Assembly: GCF_024347295.1 (NCBI RefSeq)
Contig: NZ_AP025458.1
Span: 1,178,001-1,242,000 of the forward strand
From: Vibrio artabrorum
GTDB taxonomy: Bacteria > Pseudomonadota > Gammaproteobacteria > Enterobacterales > Vibrionaceae
DNA length: 64,000 nt
Reading direction: 5' to 3'
Shown piece by piece: positions 4,810-56,566 of this stretch. Every line of letters starts with the position of its first letter. Position 1 is the stretch's first letter. The notes beneath the pieces are model-generated. The model was not told the DNA's origin. It saw only the letters and a list, made by a program, of their open reading frames with translations, and made no database searches. Both the position numbers and the translations under genes were made by a program.

Positions 4810-5934
4810 TTATAGCTCGTCTACTGTTGCCCAAACCGCGGCTAGCATGTCGTGACCAAACGCGACACTGCGCTCTGGAGACCAGCCGTAAAGTTCGTCA
4901 GCATGGCTGATGTGATCTTTGAATGGCATCTCGACAGTATAAGCCAAACACTTAAACTGCTCACCAATCCAGTTTGTGCCAACTGTCATATTCGCTTTAC
5001 CAGGTTCGTCTTTATCGTAACCAAATTCATCTTGGAACTCTGGTGTGATCGTTAGCAGTGCCTGCTTGAAGTGGTTCTCTAGCTTCGCGATGCGCTCGTT
5101 GTAAGAAGGTGTGCCTTCGCTACCCGCGACAAAGTTATATGGAATCGCTTCGTCGCCGTGAATGTCTAAGCACAGGTCAACGCCCGTTTCTAACATGCGT
5201 TCGCGAACAAGGAATACCTCTGGGCTGCGCTCCATCGATGGTGACTGCCATTCACGGTTCAGGTTTACACCAATCGCGTTAGTGCGCAGGTGACCGCGGA
5301 TGCTGCCATCTGGGTTCATGTTTGGTACAACGCGGAACACAACGCTGTCTAGAAGAGAGCGACCGACGGTATCTGTTTCATCAAGCAGGCGTTGTAGCAG
5401 GCCTTCGATTAGCCATTCAGCCATCGTTTCGCCCGGGTGTTGGCGACCAATAACCCAAATGTTTTTCTTCTCTTCACTTGGCTCGCCAATAGTGAGCAAA
5501 GTGATGTCGTTGTTGTCTAGTGTGTGACCCAGAGTTTCGAGCTTACAAGCTGGGTGCGTTTGCGCGCTGTGCAGAAGATCTTGGTGACGATCGTATGAGT
5601 ACGGTGCGAAGTACGCGAAGTACATTGAATCGTGCTCAGGGATGATATCAAAGCTTAAGATATCGCCATCGAACTGAGACGGAATACGGAACCACTCTTC
5701 ACGGTCATACGATGCAACGACATCGTAATCTTTCCAGCCTTCAGGGTAGGCAGATGTTGCTAATTGACCGATTTCAAAATGGTGAGCTTGTTGAGCTTCG
5801 CTTTCTAAACGAAAGTGAAACCATTGAGAGATTTCAGTCTGGTTGTCTGCTGGGATAGTCAGTTGAATGTTTTGTGGTGAATCTGCTGAAACGACGTGAA
5901 TGTTGCCGCTTTCAAAATTGCTGAAAATTTTCAT
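4810..5934 (-). CDS. M14 family zinc carboxypeptidase
   Basis: A cytosolic-type M14 metallocarboxypeptidase of 374 residues without a signal peptide. An N-terminal beta domain typical of the AGBL/CCP-like branch (MKIFSNFESGNIHVV) precedes the catalytic domain. The zinc ligands are in GRQHPGETMAEW (HxxE) and DIHGDE, the substrate-binding segment is NPDGSIRGHLRTN with NLNREW, and the catalytic glutamate is in YTVEMPF. It should remove C-terminal residues from peptides; the physiological substrate is unknown. The ATG at 5932-5934 is chosen over an upstream in-frame start because family members begin MKIFSNFE. Confidence 0.9.
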   Translation of the reverse strand: MKIFSNFESGNIHVVSADSPQNIQLTIPADNQTEISQWFHFRLESEAQQAHHFEIGQLATSAYPEGWKDYDVVASYDREEWFRIPSQFDGDILSFDIIPEHDSMYFAYFAPYSYDRHQDLLHSAQTHPACKLETLGHTLDNNDITLLTIGEPSEEKKNIWVIGRQHPGETMAEWLIEGLLQRLLDETDTVGRSLLDSVVFRVVPNMNPDGSIRGHLRTNAIGVNLNREWQSPSMERSPEVFLVRERMLETGVDLCLDIHGDEAIPYNFVAGSEGTPSYNERIAKLENHFKQALLTITPEFQDEFGYDKDEPGKANMTVGTNWIGEQFKCLAYTVEMPFKDHISHADELYGWSPERSVAFGHDMLAAVWATVDEL

Positions 5935-6097
5935 TGTAGTTCTTATCTCGTAGTTGAGTTGCCGTAAGATTAGCACACTTTTTTTTCGAGAAAACCACTA
6001 ACGAAATCGTCACCAGATGTAATTTGAACTTGAAGTGATCTTTTTAACTCTTTGAGGCTTATAGATAAAACATCAATAAACTGGGCAGGAAAGTACC

Positions 6098-11121: not shown

Positions 11122-11158
11122 AAAGCCAGTCTTCCTATTTGGAAGACTGGCTTTTTTT
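11122..11158 (+). terminator. Terminator of proVWX
   Basis: A perfect 14-bp stem, AAAGCCAGTCTTCC (11122-11135) with GGAAGACTGGCTTT (11141-11154), extends into seven T residues. Confidence 0.95.
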
Positions 11159-11335
11159 GGGTCTGATGTAGGACTCGCGTGTAAGCATCGCTAAATGTGC
11201 GACCTTGGCTTTCTGTCATTTGCTAAGCTAAGCGTCAAACTTCGTCATCAACACGAAATTGAATTTCAGTGTCCATGAGTAACTCTTAACTTGACGTGTG
11301 TACAAATGTTAGCGCTGGAGTTGAGCGAGGGCAGT

Positions 11336-11371
11336 TAACAAACGACTAAGGCAGATTCACAACGCTTGGCG
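11336..11371 (+). other. attC (VCR)-like half site, possibly degenerate
   Basis: TAACAAACG at 11336-11344 and CAACGCTTGGCG at 11360-11371 reproduce the left arm of Vibrio integron repeats (from memory, TAACAAACG, a variable arm, CAACGCGTGGCG) at nearly the same spacing. I could not find the matching right arm (GCGTTG and a closing GTTA) within the following 250 bases, so at best this is a broken or truncated site. It lies at the left border of the accessory block. Confidence 0.35.
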
Positions 11372-11389
11372 CCATAACTTCAATTTACT

Positions 11390-11499
11390 CTTTACTAAAC
11401 AAGAACGATTATATTGATCAACATTTTCTAATGTGGAAGCTCATGCAAAGCCAGTTTCTCTGGAGTGCCAATATGCAAAATAACAACAAGGTTATCATC
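11390..11499 (+). repeat. Left copy of the flanking direct repeat
   Basis: About 110 bases that recur in the same orientation at 17772-17880 on the other side of the giant helicase-nuclease gene. The first 44 aligned positions match at 39. Similarity continues more weakly through AAGCTCATGCAAAGCCAG against AAGCTAATGCACAGTCAG and into the first codons of a small reading frame in each copy. Confidence 0.8.
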
Positions 11500-11625: not shown

Positions 11626-14600
11626 ATGTCCAACGAATATAACAAGTACTTAATAGATCAACTGGAAGAGTTGGTCGAAAAACATAAATACAGTGACGTG
11701 ATACTCAAAAAAATTGATGCCGTTTTAGCTTCTCGTCGAGTTAGAAAACGCAATACAGATCTGCGAGTTCGTATTAAAACCATTCGGACTGTCGCTAAAA
11801 ACAATGTTCATCAAGCGTCTAAGACCCCAGAAAATCAACCTATAAAGAGTGAACTGATGAGAAATAGCGACGCGCCGATTGTCTATCCCGGCAACTTTCT
11901 TGTTTCTGCTTTTGAAGGGATGCGGCAGAGGCTACTAGATACGTCTGGTGGTCGTTCTCGGTTGCTGAATTTGGACCAGAACGGGCGGTCATTTGTTCGT
12001 GTTGTCGATGAACTACCAGACCAGTTGATGAAATTGTTGATGTCTGAAAGGGCTATGAATGTCGCGCCAGTTCCAGAGCCGACATCAACACAACTTGTCG
12101 AACATGGCTTTCTTCGATGGGACGATGAGCTTGAAAAATTCATTGAGCTTAAAAAACAGCCTGATGCTAAGCAGTGGGCGGGTATTATTGGTATTCACAA
12201 TAGCTTTGAATTGCCGCGAGATTCGGAACATGTTGACGATAACAGGCACTCAGATTTGGATCTCCAATCGCTGCTTTTTGAAGCAGAGCTGAACAACTGC
12301 CTGAAAAAGCTGTCGACAGATGCCAGAACTGCTATTGATGAAACCGGAAACAACATTCTTTTCTTGTGTTTGGGCTTTCTCGAGTGGGTTGAGCAAGAAG
12401 AAGGCGGTAGAAAGCGTTTAGCCCCGCTTTACATGGTGCCAGTCAGTATTACAAAGCACTTTCAAAATGGCCTAGCGGTATACCGCCTGCAGTACACCGG
12501 AGAGGATATTATTCCAAATCTGGTGCTTCGTGAAAAACTTCAGCAAGAGTTTGGTCTCACTCTCCCTGAAATTACCGAACCAGATAGCGACGATAAGCTA
12601 CTTACACCTGAAAAGTATTTTCAAGAAGTTAGCGCGCTACTTGCCAGAAAAAGTAACGATAAAACGGTTCGACTTTGGCAGGTACGTCGCTTTGGCACCC
12701 TAGCTACTCTTAGCTTGGGCAAGCTTCTGATGTACAAAGACCTCGACCCAAGAAAATGGCCGGAAGGTGAGGGCAATATTCTTCAGCATGAGGTCTTTCG
12801 TCGGTTCTTCCAAGATGAAGCTAGGCAAGTTGAGTTCCGTGGTGAAGCGAAAAGTTATGTACTCGATGAAATAGATAACGTTCACCAAAGCTTCCCCATG
12901 ATTGAAGATGCGGACAGCTCTCAAATGAGCGCACTTATCGATGTGATGAAAGGTAAGAATCTCGTCATTGAGGGACCGCCCGGCACCGGTAAATCCCAAA
13001 CAATTACTAATATTCTAGCCGCTGCCATGGCCCAGGGGAAAAGTGTCCTTTTCGTGGCGGAGAAACAAGCGGCACTGGAAGTGGTTAAGCGCCGTATGGA
13101 TAAAGCGGGCCTTGGCGATTTTTGTCTTGATCTACACAGCGACGGGGCGAAAAAACGCCTTGTGTTGGATGACTTTAACCAGCGTATTGCGAACTCTCCT
13201 AGCTTCAAATATTCAACAGCTGAATATGAACGCCAAGTTGAGCGTTATGAACGCGCTCGTGAGAAGCTGCAGAGTTATGTCCAAATGATTAATGCGGAGT
13301 GGAAACACACCGGATTGACCATTCACGAGATACTGATGGCGGCGACTCGCTACAGTAGCGAATGTTCCAATCTGAAGTTTCAAGATATTGCCCCTGATGA
13401 CCTCTCTGGCGAAACGTTCAACCGTGTCATCCTAGATGAAAAAATCGATCAGTTAACGCAATTTTATGACTATCTACATCGTGTTAGTCAGCAGCTTGAT
13501 GATAGTGACAATTGGTGCTCTCACCCTTGGTATGGTGCCACGAACAAAGCACTATCTGGAGTAGATCCAGAAGACGTGGTTCGACAGCTCCAGCAATGGG
13601 ATTTCAGCCTCATAAACTGGCTGAATGAGTTCATAGACCAGTGCAATTCATTCGATCTGAACCCTGATTATCACTTGATGAAAGCTGAGGCATTTGTCAG
13701 CTCTTGGGCTGACATTCCAGCTCCTAAAGGAGATGAGCTTTTCACTGCAATAGAGCAAATTACGCCTGAATCGCTTGAAGAGCTCGATGGCTATTTGGCT
13801 CTCTATCAATCTATTGCGGAAGGCTATGGTTACCTAAAAAAACACTTCGTAAAAGATGTCATTGAAAACCTAGACAGCGTTGAAGATATTGAACTCGCAA
13901 TGCGTGGGCTGGCCGAGCTGGGCGTAGATAGAACGCTTGGATTTAGTGAGCTGGCGAGAACCTTAAGCTCCTTACAGGTTGCTATCGACACGTGTGCGAA
14001 AATTGACGTAGTCCGAAGCGAAATGGCTCCTCATTTACCCCAGGCTGCGCAAAAACTATTGGGATGCAGCAGACAAGGTTTGAATGAGTTGGATACGTTT
14101 GTTCGTCTGTCCTGTGAAATGCCACCAGCCAATCTCTCTTTGAGAAACGAACTTTGGGATAGCGAAGAGCTAGCCTGTGAATTGGGAAGCTTGGAGCAAC
14201 GAGTACAATCGCTGAGTGATGAAAAGCGTACACTGAGTGAGAGCTTGGATACAGAAGCTTTACCCTCTGTTGAGTTGTTAAAACGCTATGCAGAAGCCTA
14301 TAGAAACAAGGGCCTGTTTTCGTGGCTTTCGCCTACGTGGCGAGAAGCGAAAAAAGCAGTTTTAGGGTTTAAAAAGTCTGGAAGTCATTCAAACCAAGAT
14401 ATTGCAGTCCTGTTAGAAAGAGTCGCTACTTGGTCTGAGGAAAGTAATACGTTTCTCAACGACACTAAATTCCGCTCGTTGCTTCAGGAGCATTTCCAAG
14501 GCGCAGAAACCGACGTAGCGAAGATTCGCTCCATGGTCGAGTGGTATCAGAAAGTTCGAGCGGAATATGGTATTGGTTTTGGGCGTCGAGTACCGCTTGC

Positions 14601-17364
14601 TCAGGCTTTGTTCTCGCTTCCTTCAGAGCTTATTAGGGGAATAAACACACTAAATAGCGATGGCCTTCGACAGCAAATCGACTCGTTTAACCAAGCTCTG
14701 AGAAGGCTTGCATTGGTTTACCCTAAAATGGCTGTGTTTGCTGCGGAAGACATCGATTTTACGTCTGACAACAAGCCGCTCGAAAATGCAAAAGTTGAAA
14801 TTGAGAAAAAGCTGTTTTCATGCCAGCGATTTCTTGTCGATGCCAATATGTCCCAAGAGTTACTTTGGGAGGGAATCACCTCGGCCAAACAACTCGATTC
14901 TCGAGTTAAGTCATTCCTAAATCAGGGGCTGGATGAAAGGTATTTTGGCAACGATGCACTTCTATCGGTACCAGTCTCTGGTCATGTCTCTCCAGAGCTT
15001 TCTCGTATCACGGCAACGATGGATTTCGTTGAGGAGCTTTATGATCGCTGTTCTTCTCCTGACATTATTTCTCTCGTAAAGCAATGTTCAAACATTGAGT
15101 CCATCGCTGAGTTAAGAAAAGTAGGCTCTGAGCTTGAAGCTCTCATGCGACGTGCTCAATACGATGAGTCAGTGTTTTTTGAACAGGTGGGCGGAAATCG
15201 CGAACAGTGGTTTGAATACTGTGGATTCGAATTAAAGCACGTCATTGATCGCAACGCAAAAGCGATCAAAAGTGGGGAGTGGCTGGATGGCTGGATCAAG
15301 TATCTGTTTGCTAAAGCCCGTATGGAGAAAGGTGGATACTCTCGGCTAAATCAATACTTGAGCCAGAGTAGCTGCTCGCTTAAACAGGCTCAAAATGCTC
15401 TTAAGTTCGCGACTTATCAGATGCTAGCTCGAGCAATATACAAAGAGCGTCCTGAACTGACTCAAATGTCCGGCCATGAGCAGGCCGCAATTCAGCAACA
15501 GTTTGCTAAATATGATGAAGAGCTAAAAATTCTGCAGAGAAAACGTGTCGCTGCTTTAGCTAGTGATAGACACATTCCGAGCGGAACAAGAGGGGCTAAG
15601 GTTGCAAGCTACACGGAAGATGCACTGCTAGACCATGAGATTAAGAAAAAGACGCGTCATATTTCTATACGCAATCTGGTGACTCGTGCAGGCTCAACTC
15701 TTGTGGGATACAAGCCCTGCTTCATGATGAGCCCGATGGCCGTTGCCAAGTATATTCCGCCGGGCAGTATCACTTTCGACATCGTAGTGATGGATGAGGC
15801 TTCGCAGGTGAAGCCTCAGGATGCGCTTAGCTGTTTTGCCCGTGGTAAACAAATTGTAGTGGTGGGTGACTCCAAGCAGCTGCCACCTACGTCATTCTTT
15901 GAAAAAACAGTGTCGAATGATTCGGAAGATGACCAAGAGGACGTTGGCGTAATTGATGATGCAGAGAGCATTCTTGATGCAGTGAGTGATCACTTCAGGA
16001 AGAGACAACTTAAATGGCATTACCGTTCGCGGCATGAAAGCCTGATAGCATTTTCTAACCACCGTTTCTACGACAGCAGCTTGGTTGTATTCCCATCCCC
16101 TTGGGGGCAATCGGATGAATTTGGTATCAAATTCAATCACGTCCCAGAAGGACAGTTTTTGAACAGTGTTAACCACGGCGAATCTCATGCCGTTGTCGCT
16201 GCGATTAGGGAGCACCTGCTTTCAAAATCATCAGAGAGCCTTGGTGTGGTCGCAATGAACTCCAAACAACGCGATTACATTGAAGCGGATTTAGAGCGCC
16301 TGATTGGCAAAGATAAGCTTTTGCGCGAGGCGTATGAATTAAATCAACACAGTGACGACCCTCTATTTATCAAAAACCTGGAAAACGTTCAGGGTGATGA
16401 ACGCGATGTGATTTTTATATCGTTCACATACGGGCCTCAGGAGAAAGGTGCGGCAAATATTCCCCAACGCTTTGGTCCAATAAACAGTGCAAGTGGTTGG
16501 CGACGACTGAACGTTCTGTTTACTCGTGCTAAGAAACGCATCCAAATCTACAGCTCAATGACAGCTGATCAAATTGTTTTGAATGAAAGCAGCAGCTTGG
16601 GCGTTACTTCGCTGAAGGGGTATTTAAAGTATGCTCAGCATGGTCAGCTGATTGGGCATGATGGTGTTCAACAGAAAGAACCTGATAGTGACTTTGAAAT
16701 TTCGGTCATGGACGCCTTGGCCAGAAAGGGCTTTGAATGTGTCCCGCAAGTAGGAGTTTCAGGGTTCTTCATAGATATTTCTGTGCGAGACCCTGGGATG
16801 CCAGGTAGATACCTAATGGGGATTGAATGTGACGGGGCAACTTATCACAGCAGTAAATCCACGCGTGACAGAGACCGAGTAAGACAAGGTGTTCTTGAAG
16901 GATTGGGCTGGAATATTCGCCGGATATGGTCAACGGATTGGTTTAAACATCCTGAGGCTGAGTTGAAACCCATTGTTGAAGAGCTCAAAAGGCTTTCTAC
17001 ACCTATTAAGCAGCAAACCAGCACGGAATCGATGTCTGAAGTTAAAGAGGAGCCAACAGAGGAATTGAGATATAAAGCAGCGAGAACGCTAGAGGAAGCT
17101 CTAACTCGCTACAAATTGGTCATTGAAAAAAAGTATCCATATACTGAGCTTCATGAGAAGTTGCTGCGTCCAGATATGATTGAACACTTGATTATGGACA
17201 GGCCAATGACTCATGAGGAGTTTACGTTGAGAGTGCCTGCTTATCTTAGACAGAATACTTCTGCTAAAGAGGCGGCGGACTATCTCGATGATGTTTTGGA
17301 GATTATCACGGACTACGAAAGCATTGAGTCTTTCTCCTTAACCAGCCAAGAGATGTCCTCGTGA
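11626..17364 (+). CDS. DUF4011-helicase-Vsr-like nuclease fusion (Hhe-like defence protein)
   Basis: A single 1,912-residue protein. Residues 1-60 are charged and helical. RQRLLDTSGGRSRLLN at about 100-115 matches the DUF4011 opening (usually LLDLSxRNRLLNF). A superfamily I helicase follows: Walker A GPPGTGKSQT at about 449, a long helical insertion to about 1380, motif II VVMDEASQVKP at about 1387, VVGDSKQLPP, WHYRSRHESLIAFSN, ENVQGDERDVIFIS at about 1585 and LNVLFTRAKKRI. The C-terminal nuclease, about 1689-1780, has FEISVMDALARKGF, IECDGATYHSSKSTRDRDR and GWNIRRIWSTDWF, the Vsr/MTES_1575 endonuclease pattern. About 110 further residues end the protein. This architecture is that of Hhe, a single-gene antiphage system; DUF4011 has been viewed as HEPN-like. 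The gene is alone and flanked by direct repeats. Antiphage activity of this copy is inferred. Confidence 0.85.
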   Translation: MSNEYNKYLIDQLEELVEKHKYSDVILKKIDAVLASRRVRKRNTDLRVRIKTIRTVAKNNVHQASKTPENQPIKSELMRNSDAPIVYPGNFLVSAFEGMRQRLLDTSGGRSRLLNLDQNGRSFVRVVDELPDQLMKLLMSERAMNVAPVPEPTSTQLVEHGFLRWDDELEKFIELKKQPDAKQWAGIIGIHNSFELPRDSEHVDDNRHSDLDLQSLLFEAELNNCLKKLSTDARTAIDETGNNILFLCLGFLEWVEQEEGGRKRLAPLYMVPVSITKHFQNGLAVYRLQYTGEDIIPNLVLREKLQQEFGLTLPEITEPDSDDKLLTPEKYFQEVSALLARKSNDKTVRLWQVRRFGTLATLSLGKLLMYKDLDPRKWPEGEGNILQHEVFRRFFQDEARQVEFRGEAKSYVLDEIDNVHQSFPMIEDADSSQMSALIDVMKGKNLVIEGPPGTGKSQTITNILAAAMAQGKSVLFVAEKQAALEVVKRRMDKAGLGDFCLDLHSDGAKKRLVLDDFNQRIANSPSFKYSTAEYERQVERYERAREKLQSYVQMINAEWKHTGLTIHEILMAATRYSSECSNLKFQDIAPDDLSGETFNRVILDEKIDQLTQFYDYLHRVSQQLDDSDNWCSHPWYGATNKALSGVDPEDVVRQLQQWDFSLINWLNEFIDQCNSFDLNPDYHLMKAEAFVSSWADIPAPKGDELFTAIEQITPESLEELDGYLALYQSIAEGYGYLKKHFVKDVIENLDSVEDIELAMRGLAELGVDRTLGFSELARTLSSLQVAIDTCAKIDVVRSEMAPHLPQAAQKLLGCSRQGLNELDTFVRLSCEMPPANLSLRNELWDSEELACELGSLEQRVQSLSDEKRTLSESLDTEALPSVELLKRYAEAYRNKGLFSWLSPTWREAKKAVLGFKKSGSHSNQDIAVLLERVATWSEESNTFLNDTKFRSLLQEHFQGAETDVAKIRSMVEWYQKVRAEYGIGFGRRVPLAQALFSLPSELIRGINTLNSDGLRQQIDSFNQALRRLALVYPKMAVFAAEDIDFTSDNKPLENAKVEIEKKLFSCQRFLVDANMSQELLWEGITSAKQLDSRVKSFLNQGLDERYFGNDALLSVPVSGHVSPELSRITATMDFVEELYDRCSSPDIISLVKQCSNIESIAELRKVGSELEALMRRAQYDESVFFEQVGGNREQWFEYCGFELKHVIDRNAKAIKSGEWLDGWIKYLFAKARMEKGGYSRLNQYLSQSSCSLKQAQNALKFATYQMLARAIYKERPELTQMSGHEQAAIQQQFAKYDEELKILQRKRVAALASDRHIPSGTRGAKVASYTEDALLDHEIKKKTRHISIRNLVTRAGSTLVGYKPCFMMSPMAVAKYIPPGSITFDIVVMDEASQVKPQDALSCFARGKQIVVVGDSKQLPPTSFFEKTVSNDSEDDQEDVGVIDDAESILDAVSDHFRKRQLKWHYRSRHESLIAFSNHRFYDSSLVVFPSPWGQSDEFGIKFNHVPEGQFLNSVNHGESHAVVAAIREHLLSKSSESLGVVAMNSKQRDYIEADLERLIGKDKLLREAYELNQHSDDPLFIKNLENVQGDERDVIFISFTYGPQEKGAANIPQRFGPINSASGWRRLNVLFTRAKKRIQIYSSMTADQIVLNESSSLGVTSLKGYLKYAQHGQLIGHDGVQQKEPDSDFEISVMDALARKGFECVPQVGVSGFFIDISVRDPGMPGRYLMGIECDGATYHSSKSTRDRDRVRQGVLEGLGWNIRRIWSTDWFKHPEAELKPIVEELKRLSTPIKQQTSTESMSEVKEEPTEELRYKAARTLEEALTRYKLVIEKKYPYTELHEKLLRPDMIEHLIMDRPMTHEEFTLRVPAYLRQNTSAKEAADYLDDVLEIITDYESIESFSLTSQEMSS

Positions 17365-17771
17365 TTATGCACTTTGTCTATCAAGTTAATTCAAGTAGGA
17401 GCACTAGTAAGCCAAGGTGGATTTATCAAGGTAGAAAAGCCAGACATAGTTTAGATCTACAAATTGGGCTTGGTATATGTTTCGGCTAAAGTTTTATCAC
17501 CTCAACTCAATCATGCTCAATACATGAGCATGGTTAACTATCTTTCAGTTGGGAAGAACTTGGGTAAAGGCCGGAATGATCTGCACCATTAAAAATGAAC
17601 AAAACTAAGCGACGTTCCATACCTGTAGTTATTCATTTCTTACTAATTTAGCAAAGTCGCTAAGAAACTTCTGTCCAGAGTCTTCATAGACCTGACGTTT
17701 TACGCGTGGCACTTATCTCTCAAAGTGCCTGCTAGTTCAGTTCTGCCCCATTCCTACTTAGAGTTATTGCT
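17365..17771. other. Gene-free stretch after the helicase-nuclease gene
   Basis: About 400 bases. An 8-bp inverted repeat, CATGCTCA ATACA TGAGCATG, lies at 17512-17532; it lacks a T tract, so it is not a classical terminator. A 40-codon frame from 17367 (MHFVYQVNSSRSTSKPRW) has no support beyond being open. The sequence looks like decayed former coding DNA. Confidence 0.4.
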
Positions 17772-17880
17772 CTTCACTAAACAAACACGATTATATTGAC
17801 CAACATTGTCTAATGATAGAAGCTAATGCACAGTCAGCTTCCTTGAAGGTAATATGGATAGTAATAGCAAGGATATCTAC
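17772..17880 (+). repeat. Right copy of the flanking direct repeat
   Basis: Partner of 11390-11499, in the same orientation. It includes an ACGATTATATTGA core shared by both copies, continues to the start codon of the broken GIY-YIG gene at 17854 and covers its first nine codons. It probably represents the promoter and start of an ancestral gene that was duplicated or inserted into. Confidence 0.8.
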
Positions 17881-18142
17881 AAAATCATATATCCAAACAG
17901 CAAGATCTACATCGGGAAAATATATTACGATCAGTATCAACTAATGGGGAAGTGCTAAAAGTGGTGTGATTGCTGAGAATTTCAATTTTGAACAAAGGAT
18001 GAATATGACTATTCACCGAGAAATCATATTCTCTTCTGATAGCGTTGATGAGGTCAACAAGAAAGAAACTGAGCTGATTCGCCAGTACAACTCTAACAAC
18101 CCTGATATTAAGTATAATCGATGTCCAAAGTACAAACGATAG
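17854..18142 (+). pseudogene. Frameshifted GIY-YIG nuclease family gene
   Basis: The first frame reads MDSNSKDIYKIIYPNSKIYI then GKIYYDQYQLMGKC and stops at 17956-17958. IYK..YPN.KIYIGK is the GIY-YIG opening of small vibrio proteins. The family similarity resumes in another frame from about 17966: VIAENFNFEQRMNMTIHREI, then KKETELIRQYNSNNPDIKYN, RCPKYKR, ending at 18140-18142. Together they span 289 bases, close to the roughly 95-residue length expected of intact members. At least one frameshift separates the halves, so no intact nuclease is made. Confidence 0.7.
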
Positions 18143-26558: not shown

Positions 26559-28301
26559 TCAACGTTGTTGAAGTTCGTCTTCGAATATTTTATCTCTCAT
26601 TTTCCAAAAGCGTCCTACTTTACGCGCAATCACGAATTGAGGTGGGCGAAATCGATGTTGGTGGGCGACCACTTTAGTTGGGGAAGTTTCTTCGAAAGGA
26701 CGGTGTCTGTCAGCAAGGTGAGGGCGAACAAACTGATCCTTGAATGTCTGCTTTTGCTTCTTTGTGGTTAATGACCAGAATTCATGCACTTGCGCTTGGT
26801 TTTCACCACGATAGGTGACTTTAAGTTGTGTCTTACCTTTTTCGTCTTTGAGTACATTAAGGTCCATCTCTAAGCATTCAAATACGAGGGCGTCTTTTAA
26901 ATTTAACGCTTCTTTGAGCTTTTTGTCGGGGTCAACTAAAGTGGCATCGCACTCATGACAAATACGCGCGGCAATGTCGTTATCAGCTCCGCATTCACCA
27001 CAATACTTGGCGCGGAAGCGATACCCACAGTGTTCGCGTTCTCTGGTGTCTTCGTCGGTAAAGTAGCCCTGGCACTTGCGGCCAAAGTGTTCGAGTAGGA
27101 AGCCATTGCTGTCTAGTTTGCCCCAAAAGTTGTTATTGAAGCCACAAGCTGGGCAGGGAATGGTGATGATCTCACTGTCGGAATCCGGCTTAGGATCACC
27201 GACTTCAGGTTGGTAGAGGTCGTAACTGTTGCCCGCGTAGTCGAGTACCAAACACGCCTTTTTACCCGGCGATAAGCGTAATCCACGGCCAACGATTTGT
27301 TGGTATAAACTGATGGATTCAGTTGGCCGTAAAATCGCAATGAGATCCACATGTGGGGCATCGAAGCCTGTGGTTAATACTGACACGTTAACTAAGAACT
27401 TTATTTTACGTTCTTTGAAATCGTTGATGATTTGGTCTCGTTCGAGGGTTGGTGTTTCGCCGATGACGATGGATGATTCACTTTCGGGCAGTAAACCGAG
27501 GATCTCTTGAGCGTGTCTAACGGTCGCAGCAAATACCATGATGCCGACTTTGTCTTTGGCCAGCTCGATGATCTGGTCGACAATCTGTGGCGTCGCGCGT
27601 TTAGATTGTTCGATAACCATGTCGAGTTCGGCTTCTTTGTAGCGACCGGTGCTCGCTGGCTTGAGCTGTGAAAAGTCATAACTTAAAACGGGGGCATCAA
27701 TCATGTGGGCTGGCGTGAGAAAGCCTTCGTCTAATAGGTAGCGAATTGGGAGTTCGAAAATACAGTCTCTGAAAAAACGAGGCTCTTCAGAACGAACTTG
27801 GCCACGTGTGTGATATTGATAAATCCAACCCATCCCAAGACGATACGGGGTCGCAGTCAGGCCGAGCACTTTGATTCCCGGATTGTTTTCACGTAAGTGA
27901 GAGATGACTTTTTGATAGCTACTGGTTTTTTCATCGGGCACACGGTGGCATTCATCGATAACCAACAGTGAAAATTGGTTTGAGAATGAATCGAGATTTC
28001 GCACCACAGATTGTACTGAAGCAAACACCACTTGTTGGTCGGTCTCTTTTCTCCCTAAACCGGCTGAGAAAATTGAGCCTTTTAACCCGTAACCTTCATA
28101 CTTTTCATGATTCTGTTCAACCAACTCTTTTACGTGAGCCAGTACCAACACTCGACCTTTCGCAAGCCTTGCCAATTCAGCAATTACAAGGCTTTTCCCA
28201 GCACCAGTCGGAAGCACGAGAACAGCCGGAGTTTGGTGTTTTCTGAAGTAATGAATCACGGATTTGACGGAGTCTGCTTGGTATGGTCGGAGTGTATACA
28301 T
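26559..28301 (-). CDS. radD: RadD (YejH) DEAD/DEAH-type DNA repair helicase
   Basis: A 580-residue superfamily II protein starting MYTLRPYQADSVKSVIHYF. Walker A is VLPTGAGKSLVIAEL, the DEAH-type box is VIDECHR, motif III GLTATPYRLG, and motif VI IVGRGLRLSPGKKACLVLD. Two C-terminal cysteine clusters (CPACGFNNNFWGK and CGECGADNDIAARICHEC) should bind zinc. The sequence closely tracks E. coli RadD, which supports recombinational repair with SSB and RecA. The ATG at 28299-28301 is chosen by that alignment. It is divergent from rsuA, as in E. coli. Confidence 0.95.
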   Translation of the reverse strand: MYTLRPYQADSVKSVIHYFRKHQTPAVLVLPTGAGKSLVIAELARLAKGRVLVLAHVKELVEQNHEKYEGYGLKGSIFSAGLGRKETDQQVVFASVQSVVRNLDSFSNQFSLLVIDECHRVPDEKTSSYQKVISHLRENNPGIKVLGLTATPYRLGMGWIYQYHTRGQVRSEEPRFFRDCIFELPIRYLLDEGFLTPAHMIDAPVLSYDFSQLKPASTGRYKEAELDMVIEQSKRATPQIVDQIIELAKDKVGIMVFAATVRHAQEILGLLPESESSIVIGETPTLERDQIINDFKERKIKFLVNVSVLTTGFDAPHVDLIAILRPTESISLYQQIVGRGLRLSPGKKACLVLDYAGNSYDLYQPEVGDPKPDSDSEIITIPCPACGFNNNFWGKLDSNGFLLEHFGRKCQGYFTDEDTREREHCGYRFRAKYCGECGADNDIAARICHECDATLVDPDKKLKEALNLKDALVFECLEMDLNVLKDEKGKTQLKVTYRGENQAQVHEFWSLTTKKQKQTFKDQFVRPHLADRHRPFEETSPTKVVAHQHRFRPPQFVIARKVGRFWKMRDKIFEDELQQR

Positions 28302-28398
28302 AAGGTGTCTTGTGTGATGAAAAACAAATAGTGTGAAATAGCTCAACTATTTGAGCAAAGGTGACTATAATACCCGACTTAGATTAGTTGAGGTATTC

Positions 28399-45505: not shown

Positions 45506-45854
45506 GTGGCGAGATTTATGCAAAGAAAAGGTATCGGAATAACGGATAAAAAAAAGCCCAAACCAATTCGGTTTGGGCGGATACAAGTATAGGAGTTAAC
45601 AAGGAAAATGCAGTGGTGAGAGAGCAGGGAAGAGACAAGTTTGACGGCCTGTTAAACTTCGAAATACTCTGCTTTCTACTTAATTTATGACTCTCCATTT
45701 CTATTTCAGTTCCAATAAAATTCATTAATTTTTCGTTTTTTTGTAAACACTCATTGATTCAATTGGTTAGCACCAAATTCACCTAACTGGTACGACCAAT
45801 CTGCGAAAATGTGATGTTGCCTGCTTGTTGAATAAATGTGTCAATAGTATATTT
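45506..45854. other. Gene-free stretch, possibly encoding a minus-strand small RNA
   Basis: No accepted gene. It contains a strong minus-strand terminator (45548-45578) that has no protein gene upstream of it on that strand, so a short transcript from roughly 45600-45850 is possible. Confidence 0.35.
45548..45578 (-). terminator. Orphan minus-strand terminator
   Basis: GCCCAAACC (45556-45564) pairs with GGTTTGGGC (45570-45578). On the minus strand it is followed by TTTTTTTT. No minus-strand protein gene ends here. Confidence 0.8.
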
Positions 45855-54276: not shown

Positions 54277-55920
54277 TTAGGCATTGATTTTCTCGACCAG
54301 TTGCGTGATTTTACTCATCAGATTCGGTGCAAGAGTTGAGATTTCACGCTGCTCTTCAAGTACAGAAGAAAGAATGTCATTGCCCGTTAATGGGTTTGCT
54401 AACACCACACGGAAAACGATGATTGGTTGTTGTGTCCAAACTTCAGGATTCAAACGAGTTCGTGAAACAAAAGAGCGCCCCGTTTCGCGTTGCTTTTTCT
54501 GAATGAATTTGGTGAGCTCGTTCAACAGTTCATTAAGCTCTACACGATCTTTCATGTTGGCTTTCACAAGAGCGGCTTTAACTGGCTCGGGAACGTAGCG
54601 GTAAGTTAACAGACAAAGCTCAGGTTCTGAGACCAGCTCAAAATCACGTTGTCGTTTAATCAGATCAGCAAAATAGCGCGCTTTGTTGATGCTTTGGTCA
54701 ATCAGCAGTTCATAGCCTGGACGGCTGATAATATGCATAGAGGCATAAACAAGCATGGCCATGCCGGAACGAGAGCCTTCTAAAGTGTGACTACCCAAAT
54801 CTTTAGAACCCTTACGCAAAATATATTGAGCGTGATGTTCGATGGCTGTCATCGCATCTGGATTTTTAAACAAAACCATGCCCGCACCCATAGGGATATA
54901 AAGCTGTTTATGCGCATCAATCGTGACAGAGTCGGCGAGCTCAATACCATCGAGTAGGTGACGGTGGTTGTTCGACATCAGCGTTGCGCCGCCCCAAGCG
55001 GCATCCACATGGAAGTGACAATCTGACTCGGCACATATTTTAGCAATATCCTTTAGTGGATCGATATTACCCGTTTCTGTTGTACCAGCCACGCCAATAA
55101 CTGCGAAAGGTTTGATCTTGTTCTGTTTAAGTTGGTCTATCTTAAGTCGCAGATCGTCGGTGCAAATGCGGTTGTTATTATCTGTTTTAACCGATACCAG
55201 GCCGTCTTGACCTATTCCAAGTACATCCGCGGCTTTTTTTAGAGAGTAGTGGCCACGTTCAGAGACTAAGATGGCAAGGCCTTCATAGTCATAGTGCTTC
55301 ATGGCTTTAAATAACCCTTCTTTCTCGACGCCTTTAAACGACCCTTTTGCTTTGAGTGCGTTGTTACGTGCGACCCAAAGTGCGGTGATATTTGCAATGG
55401 TACCGCCAGAACAAAATGCACCTAAAGAGTGATTTGCGCTGTGCATCCAACGCGAATAAAACGCGTCGTTATCTTGATAAATCAAGCGGTGAAGCATACC
55501 TAGGACTTGACGTTCTAGTGGGGTGAAGGCTTTCGATGTCTCGATTTTTACTAGATTTTGATTCAACGCAATCATAATTTTAGAGAGCGGCATCAAGAAA
55601 TATGGAAGGGCAGACGTCATATGACCAATAAAGCTTGGCGATGATGTATGTACCGAATGAGATACGAGAGAATCGAGAAGATGCTCAGTATGTTTAGAAA
55701 CAAACTCAGGCTGCTCGGGGATATGAGCATTTGAAAAATCTTTCTCAATGTCACGAAGCGGCTTTTCTTCAGCCACAATGTGTTCACGTAAGAATTGATT
55801 TAGGTTTCGTGAAAGTTTGTCTTCAATTTGAGTGAGTGTTGAATCTGGGCCTTCAGGTACCGTGAAGATACGTAAAAGACTGTCGAAGCTAACATCTGCT
55901 GTTTTTTGTTCCGTAACCAT
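54277..55920 (-). CDS. panP: PLP-dependent aspartate 1-decarboxylase PanP
   Basis: A 547-residue group II PLP decarboxylase. The PLP lysine is in SVTIDAHKQLYIPMGAG, and the cofactor-contacting histidine/aspartate region is CHFHVDAAWGGATLM. SGGTIANITALWVARNNALK is also typical. Vibrios use PanP in place of PanD to make beta-alanine for pantothenate and coenzyme A. The ATG at 55918-55920 (MVTEQKTADVSFDSLLRIF) is preferred over an open frame extending a further 141 bases that overlaps the next gene. Confidence 0.9.
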   Translation of the reverse strand: MVTEQKTADVSFDSLLRIFTVPEGPDSTLTQIEDKLSRNLNQFLREHIVAEEKPLRDIEKDFSNAHIPEQPEFVSKHTEHLLDSLVSHSVHTSSPSFIGHMTSALPYFLMPLSKIMIALNQNLVKIETSKAFTPLERQVLGMLHRLIYQDNDAFYSRWMHSANHSLGAFCSGGTIANITALWVARNNALKAKGSFKGVEKEGLFKAMKHYDYEGLAILVSERGHYSLKKAADVLGIGQDGLVSVKTDNNNRICTDDLRLKIDQLKQNKIKPFAVIGVAGTTETGNIDPLKDIAKICAESDCHFHVDAAWGGATLMSNNHRHLLDGIELADSVTIDAHKQLYIPMGAGMVLFKNPDAMTAIEHHAQYILRKGSKDLGSHTLEGSRSGMAMLVYASMHIISRPGYELLIDQSINKARYFADLIKRQRDFELVSEPELCLLTYRYVPEPVKAALVKANMKDRVELNELLNELTKFIQKKQRETGRSFVSRTRLNPEVWTQQPIIVFRVVLANPLTGNDILSSVLEEQREISTLAPNLMSKITQLVEKINA

Positions 55921-56038
55921 AGCAAGCGAGTTATTTTTTTTTATATTGACGCGAGCGAGACAATCTAAACGAAAACGGGAACAATGTCCCGTCTTAATTA
56001 CGAAATCCGACGTCTCAAATGACCTAACAAATGAGGGG

Positions 56039-56566
56039 CTATTGGCATTTGATCGCTTCAAGTTTCGTCATCGACTGGTTGTAGCGTTGCAACGCTGTGT
56101 CGATTTGCTTCGGATGACTGAGTAGTTCTGCAAAGGCTGAACGTAGCTCATAGTTTTGTTCATGAGGTGTTGATTGACGGTCGTCAAACGTTGTTTTTGC
56201 TATTTTGCCAAGCTCGTCATCTCGTATTGAGAGCACTTTAATATCGTGTTGTTCTAGTTGTAACCAACCTTCTATCGGCTGCTCAGTGGCCACTTTACTC
56301 GGATCGTTGACGAGGTAGTAATGTACCGCTGCACGGTTGAGTTCAAAGTGATGCTTGCGACCTTCTAGAAACCACTCACTGACCTCTGTTAACTGCGGGT
56401 ATTGCTGAGAGGTTAAAGTTGCAAGATCGGCATACCAATCTAAAGAAGCGTCGATGTATGCATCGTATTTTTTCGCTTGGCATTGATTGATTTCTGACAT
56501 TGAATCTGCAGCAAAAGAGAAAGTAGAGGTTGAAGCTAGCAGCAATGCGACGCAAAGGCGTTTCAT
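56039..56566 (-). CDS. Hypothetical periplasmic protein
   Basis: A 175-residue exported protein. The signal peptide MKRLCVALLLASTSTFSFAA is followed by a mainly helical, tyrosine-rich domain (QCQAKKYDAYIDASLDWYAD, WFLEGRKHHFELNRAAVHYY) ending KLEAIKCQ. Two cysteines, near the start of the mature protein and at the end, could form a disulfide. I do not recognise the family. GGAACC lies 4 bases before the ATG. It precedes panP in the same direction with a gap of about 120 bases. Confidence 0.75.
   Translation of the reverse strand: MKRLCVALLLASTSTFSFAADSMSEINQCQAKKYDAYIDASLDWYADLATLTSQQYPQLTEVSEWFLEGRKHHFELNRAAVHYYLVNDPSKVATEQPIEGWLQLEQHDIKVLSIRDDELGKIAKTTFDDRQSTPHEQNYELRSAFAELLSHPKQIDTALQRYNQSMTKLEAIKCQ

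Follow-up and report, generated by a model that had tools for sequence, protein, structure and literature searches.

Hhe and related nuclease-helicases

Hhe, which was reportedly first described by Gao et al. in 2020, is a named antiphage family in which a single gene encodes a DUF4011 domain, a split superfamily I (SF1) helicase and an MTES_1575 nuclease. Here we describe a member of this family found in a stretch of 64,000 nucleotides of the Vibrio artabrorum genome (contig NZ_AP025458.1, positions 1,178,001 to 1,242,000), hereafter called the window, to which coordinates refer unless another source is given. Two papers write the name as 'Gao Hhe' or 'Gao-Hhe'.

The same three components, DUF4011, SF1 helicase and MTES_1575 nuclease, are present in ProA (NCBIfam NF058533) and the PADLOC candidate PDC-S37, as seen in the G015 protein. 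Judging from profile matches, ProA and PDC-S37 are possibly the same system under two names; PDC-S37 was the best PADLOC match of two tested ProA-like proteins of about 1,570 amino acids (aa) from other vibrios. Dna2 and the Upf1-like SF1B helicases share the motor fold with Hhe, and Dna2 is also a nuclease-helicase. In contrast to them, Hhe carries a Vsr-like nuclease at its C-terminal end and has its first RecA-like domain interrupted by about 870 residues.

The window gene and its family

The gene is a single intact open reading frame with an ATG start; the original prediction, made from the sequence alone, had described one frame of 1,912 codons.

11626..17364, + strand: hhe gene, 1,912 codons, intact (open reading frame listing, NCBIfam and PADLOC profiles)

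The encoded protein scores 2407.1 bits with the NCBIfam equivalog model for the anti-phage protein Hhe (NF042953; cut-off 2000 bits), the whole model being covered. Hhe (PDLC02194) is also its best PADLOC profile (1505.7 bits), followed by candidate PDC-S37 (1214.4 bits), which bears out the proposed assignment. An E. coli Hhe protein fits the PADLOC Hhe profile from end to end (4301 bits, 1-1911), and the order of its Pfam domains, DUF4011, split SF1 helicase and MTES_1575, is identical to that of the window protein, as predicted.

The window protein shows 93% identity with the Vibrio neptunius copy, 57% with a Vibrio europaeus copy carried on a plasmid contig, and 39-41% with those from E. 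coli, a Klebsiella plasmid and G415; all of these also exceed the Hhe cut-off. Full-length relatives at these identities, together with a dN/dS of 0.17 over 1,904 codons against the V. neptunius copy, place the gene far beyond chance. In a maximum-likelihood tree of 21 relatives, for which the tool warned of long branches and uneven composition, the window protein, seven other Hhe proteins over the cut-off and one viral-contig row form a fully supported set of nine, and three ProA-like proteins of other vibrios fall apart from it. The window gene is a real, intact member of the already named Hhe family.

The window protein differs from the E. coli, Klebsiella and G415 proteins by 94 additional N-terminal residues, which among the copies compared were seen in those of Vibrio alone, and it lacks the insert of about 70 residues that E. 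coli and Klebsiella Hhe carry after about residue 205. The window protein is not assigned to ProA: it reaches 1100 bits against a cut-off of 1500, and its fully supported group in the tree is a separate one. The ProA-like protein of G015 contains DUF3320, which was seen neither in E. coli Hhe nor in the tail piece of the window protein. Three of the ProA-like vibrio proteins of about 1,570 aa (L172, L175 and L176) scored 1384-1410 bits, just under the ProA cut-off.

The helicase motor and the nuclease

A profile search had been proposed as a check on the predicted domains. DUF4011 (residues 102-305, E 1.4e-31), AAA_11 (best stretch 1383-1423), AAA_12 (1458-1642) and MTES_1575 (1690-1787, E 2.7e-35) all exceed the curated Pfam cut-offs; the DUF4011 opening anticipated near residue 100 and the Vsr/MTES_1575-like nuclease anticipated at about 1689-1780 were both found at their expected places.

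12973..12996, + strand: helicase motif I (Walker A), GPPGTGKS, residues 450-457 (alignment, motif script)
15793..15804, + strand: helicase motif II (Walker B), DEAS, residues 1390-1393 (alignment, motif script)
15997..16551, + strand: second RecA-like domain (AAA_12), residues 1458-1642, Upf1-like SF1B by fold (Pfam, fold search)
16693..16986, + strand: MTES_1575 / Vsr-like nuclease, residues 1690-1787, with invariant ECDG..YH and RDRDR (Pfam, alignment, fold search, motif script)

The script also located the helicase motifs GD.KQLPPT (1414-1422), RS.HESL (from 1467), VQGDERD (from 1588) and TRAKKR (from 1633), and the nuclease motifs IECDG..YH (1733-1741) and RDRDR (from 1747). The Walker A, Walker B and nuclease residues occupy invariant columns in 11 aligned sequences, and the window copy has them all. 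By fold and motifs, the core is a Upf1-like SF1B helicase. The nuclease has a PD-(D/E)XK-type core with the ..DG..H signature of Vsr-like nucleases.

The first RecA-like domain is split, as is seen from the positions of motif I (450-457) and motif II (1390-1393). Its halves stand about 870 residues apart (roughly 521-1375), so that the predicted interruption of about 900 residues was a fair estimate.

DUF4011 and the changing parts of the protein

Two structure models were used, neither of them spanning the whole protein (mean pLDDT 64 and 66; pTM 0.39 and 0.37).

11929..12540, + strand: DUF4011, residues 102-305, modelled as alpha/beta (Pfam, structure model)

In the DUF4011 region, strands are predicted at residues 245-254, 264-280, 283-290 and 352-361, and helices at 219-240 and 299-309. 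The HEPN fold is all-helical. A scan of the window protein found no RX4-6H motif within residues 95-305. Since DUF4011 is modelled as alpha/beta and no such motif was found, the HEPN-like N-terminal fold foreseen in the original prediction was not recovered in the DUF4011 region, and the reading of DUF4011 as HEPN appears unsupported. The helical insertion may still hold such a fold; fold searches of model 1 against the PDB gave nothing significant. Another possibility, quite unlikely in our estimation, is that DUF4011 has a nuclease-like core of its own, with helices and strands ordered as in the PD-(D/E)XK fold. Two nuclease-type folds would then flank the split helicase, one perhaps inactive and gripping DNA, and the helical N-terminal piece of the Vibrio copies would act as a clade-specific adaptor.

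Three regions lie outside the named domains.

11626..11907, + strand: N-terminal extension, residues 1-94, predicted helical, net charge +7 (alignment, searches, model, script)
13186..15750, + strand: helical insertion from motif I/Ia to motif II, about residues 521-1375 (models, conservation, dN/dS)
16987..17361, + strand: C-terminal tail, residues 1788-1912, helical in the model at low confidence (alignment, model)

Residues 1-94 are present in the three Vibrio rows of the 11-row alignment, the other eight having shorter or unrelated N-termini. Among the 25 plasmid matches listed, four from Vibrio begin at residue 1 and 21 from Klebsiella only at 90-91. A search of the genus sample with the first 92 residues found the four Hhe copies; the others among the 61 matching genomes had E values of 0.019 or worse. 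Among the copies compared, the extension thus appears restricted to Vibrio Hhe, where alone it was seen.

The insertion is weakly conserved over 521-1260, where the share of the top residue is 0.34-0.42, and better conserved over 1261-1375 (0.58), compared with 0.75-0.78 in the blocks of motif I, motif II and the nuclease. This would fit a role in specificity, and plain tolerance of change as well. The tail, counted as about 110 unassigned residues in the original prediction, does extend beyond the named domains but is not noise. By eye, the motif 'LLRP.MIE.L....P....EF...IP.YLR' recurs in seven rows of the 11-row alignment, and two further rows have a similar stretch; it is weak in row L069 and missing in the Thiomargarita row (L065). 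The further proposal that insertion, N-terminus or tail holds a sensing function found no support in the analysis.

Selection and distribution

Against the V. neptunius copy, dN/dS is 0.00 (residues 431-520) and 0.11 (1376-1689) in the motor blocks, 0.08 in the nuclease, 0.14 in residues 95-430, 0.15 in the tail, 0.24 and 0.21 in the insertion, and 0.60, based on few changes, in residues 1-94. In G157, hhe (L100 10001-15740) has about 88% identity and no longer forms one frame; two frames that overlap, of 932 and 1027 codons, take its place. Against these two, dN/dS is 0.09 and 0.12; the motor and the nuclease lie at 0.01-0.04 and residues 1-94 at 0.18. Selection is purifying and guards the motor and the nuclease most.

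Some match at E 0.001 or better occurs in 37 of 196 genomes of the genus, the own genome included. Full-length relatives are held by only four of the 196: the own genome, V. neptunius (G020; frame of 1,904 aa), V. europaeus (G068; 1,915 aa) and G157, with its split copy. The single stop in the V. neptunius and V. europaeus frames is the terminal one. Nine other genomes of the genus encode a relative of the C-terminal part at 42-49% identity; in eight of them the frame is about 1,570 aa long, and the ninth has two shorter ones. In the class sample, the Hhe cut-off is exceeded in four of 369 genomes, again counting the own. In E. coli, part of the last 2,065 bases was matched as DNA in 284 of 5,426 genomes, and all ten matches listed are annotated hhe. 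Phage records gave matches in three of 50,697, none with 80% coverage. With full-length relatives so scarce in the genus, the gene is accessory and sporadically distributed, not housekeeping. A housekeeping helicase conserved across all vibrios, named beforehand as the finding that would overturn a defence role, is contradicted by these counts.

Genomic setting

The hhe gene sits between proX and rplY, the gene of ribosomal protein L25, and is flanked left and right by what remains of other elements. No hhe match was found downstream of proX in the 14-15 kb taken from each of 19 relatives with a proX ortholog. This DNA reached rplY in six of the 19; in G028 rplY follows proX almost directly, leaving the place nearly empty, and several other relatives hold one common gene set there that is absent from the window. 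Because these relatives lack hhe at this place and differ in gene content, comparison defines 11157 to about 23255 as a variable segment between proX and rplY. Its contents are the remnant of an integron cassette with half of an attC-like site, hhe with a repeat copy on each side, a broken small frame and a LacI/FAD-oxidoreductase/sodium symporter set.

11122..11158, + strand: terminator-like hairpin after proX, last DNA common to many relatives, left edge of the variable segment (comparison)
11183..11372, + strand: integron cassette remnant that closes with the left half of an attC-like site; own chromosome 2 has 83% identical DNA at 1276153-1276343
11385..11496, + strand: left copy of an imperfect direct repeat (79%) flanking hhe (comparison)
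17767..17877, + strand: right copy of the imperfect direct repeat (79%) flanking hhe (comparison)
17854..18142, + strand: small broken frame that follows the right repeat and resembles GIY-YIG by eye only

The truncated attC-like half and its cassette DNA in the window lie on chromosome 1. Chromosome 2 carries the cassette array of this genome (about 1250000-1310000), with the integron integrase at 1318145-1319092. Between 1250000 and 1309999, a search for the attC start motif that tolerated one mismatch gave 58 matches, some of them chance hits; many of these sites are near-identical and lie at distances of 516-549 bases, which looks like the multiplication of a single cassette type.

The direct repeat around hhe is possibly part of a small element dispersed in the genus: 15 of the 196 genus genomes, including the own, hold DNA that resembles the right-hand flank of hhe, often just about 17741-17816. 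The neighbourhoods of hhe differ among the own, V. neptunius and G157 genomes. In the latter two, DNA like the right-hand repeat and broken frame stands directly before hhe, with other neighbours; this DNA may either have travelled with hhe or mark a favoured landing place.

In V. neptunius, a HipA-like gene comes after hhe (L064 6844-8578), together with a small gene resembling, by eye, its helix-turn-helix partner. Plasmid p251 of V. tubiashii encodes a 56.7% relative of the window protein near qatC and qatD, in the order hhe, SLATT gene, P-loop NTPase, qatC, qatD and a gene with a reverse-transcriptase domain (L144 13922-21745). Elsewhere in the window, the VrrA small RNA gene (45548-45679, - strand) is the only Rfam match at gathering thresholds, and 4810-5976 encodes a cytosolic-carboxypeptidase-like M14 peptidase with its N-terminal domain.

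Proposed function and alternatives

Hhe is probably a one-protein antiphage system in which the motor moves along phage nucleic acid and the nuclease cuts it. From its family membership we infer a defence role for the window copy. The Upf1-like SF1B motor would load on, and move along, single-stranded or end-bearing phage nucleic acid, such as replication intermediates. DUF4011 and the long helical insertion could shape substrate recognition or keep the nuclease off, deciding when cutting occurs, and the C-terminal Vsr-like nuclease would cut the strand while the motor works. No tested mechanism for Hhe is described in the portions consulted of the literature surveyed, including PMC10250203, PMC12278908, PMC10925250, PMC8565338, PMC11291487, PMC12242098, PMC9391042 and PMC12189261.

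Several observations weigh against this proposal. According to PMC9391042, infection of E. coli ECOR17 by T4 lacking IPIII was not restored when hhe was deleted, one of six loci removed singly; this is a narrow negative from the single test described. A DUF4011 gene flanking cDHS1 is present in every P. aeruginosa isolate (PMC10250203); DUF4011 alone is therefore no proof of defence. Both structure models are of modest confidence and cover only part of the protein each, so they do not give the relative geometry of motor and nuclease. Within the window, the gene is also not part of a defence island. A PADLOC scan of 20 other, larger window genes found no clear other defence gene: 17 had no match at E 0.001. 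The remaining three, namely an ABC-transporter ATPase, the SF2-type helicase at 26559-28346 and the gene at 54277-56061, matched in part only, apparently through generic domains that they share with defence proteins.

A main role of Hhe against plasmids or other invaders, or in the competition of mobile elements with one another, is rather unlikely; phage defence would then be a secondary effect. Relatives are frequent on plasmids (448 of 72,556 records at E 1e-5, paralogues included, 206 of them covering at least 80% of the query), and ten IMG/VR loci encode relatives when searched with an alignment query (none were found with a single-sequence query). However, plasmid carriage is also usual for phage defence genes, and the window hhe is chromosomal, with no transfer gene among the neighbours scanned. 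The nuclease-helicase might instead target RNA, like Upf1 and Senataxin, and stop infection by degrading transcripts; among the best hits for the motor fold are several RNA helicases (UPF1, Senataxin, Sen1 and Aquarius), and we regard this as improbable to a similar degree.

A housekeeping repair or RNA-processing helicase of vibrios is very unlikely: Upf1-like folds are common in housekeeping proteins and the P. aeruginosa DUF4011 gene is core, but the scarcity of full-length relatives, the differing neighbourhoods and the equivalog match to Hhe speak against it. A decaying remnant without function, which the split G157 copy and the broken elements in the flanks might suggest, is hardly credible for a copy with one open frame, every named motif intact and the low dN/dS given above.

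Meaning for the Hhe family

In contrast to the phage-defence role proposed for Hhe, which is a matter of likelihood, the place of the gene within the family is firm, and the kind of gene was already known. An intact, well-supported Vibrio clade is added to a named defence family. The view of the N-terminal parts of Hhe is corrected, as DUF4011 would not be read as HEPN and the Vibrio copies carry a 94-residue extension, predicted to be helical. The comparison separates near-constant parts, the motor and the nuclease, from changing ones, the N-terminal 94 residues, the helical insertion and the tail, and these changing parts would be the starting place for tests of specificity.
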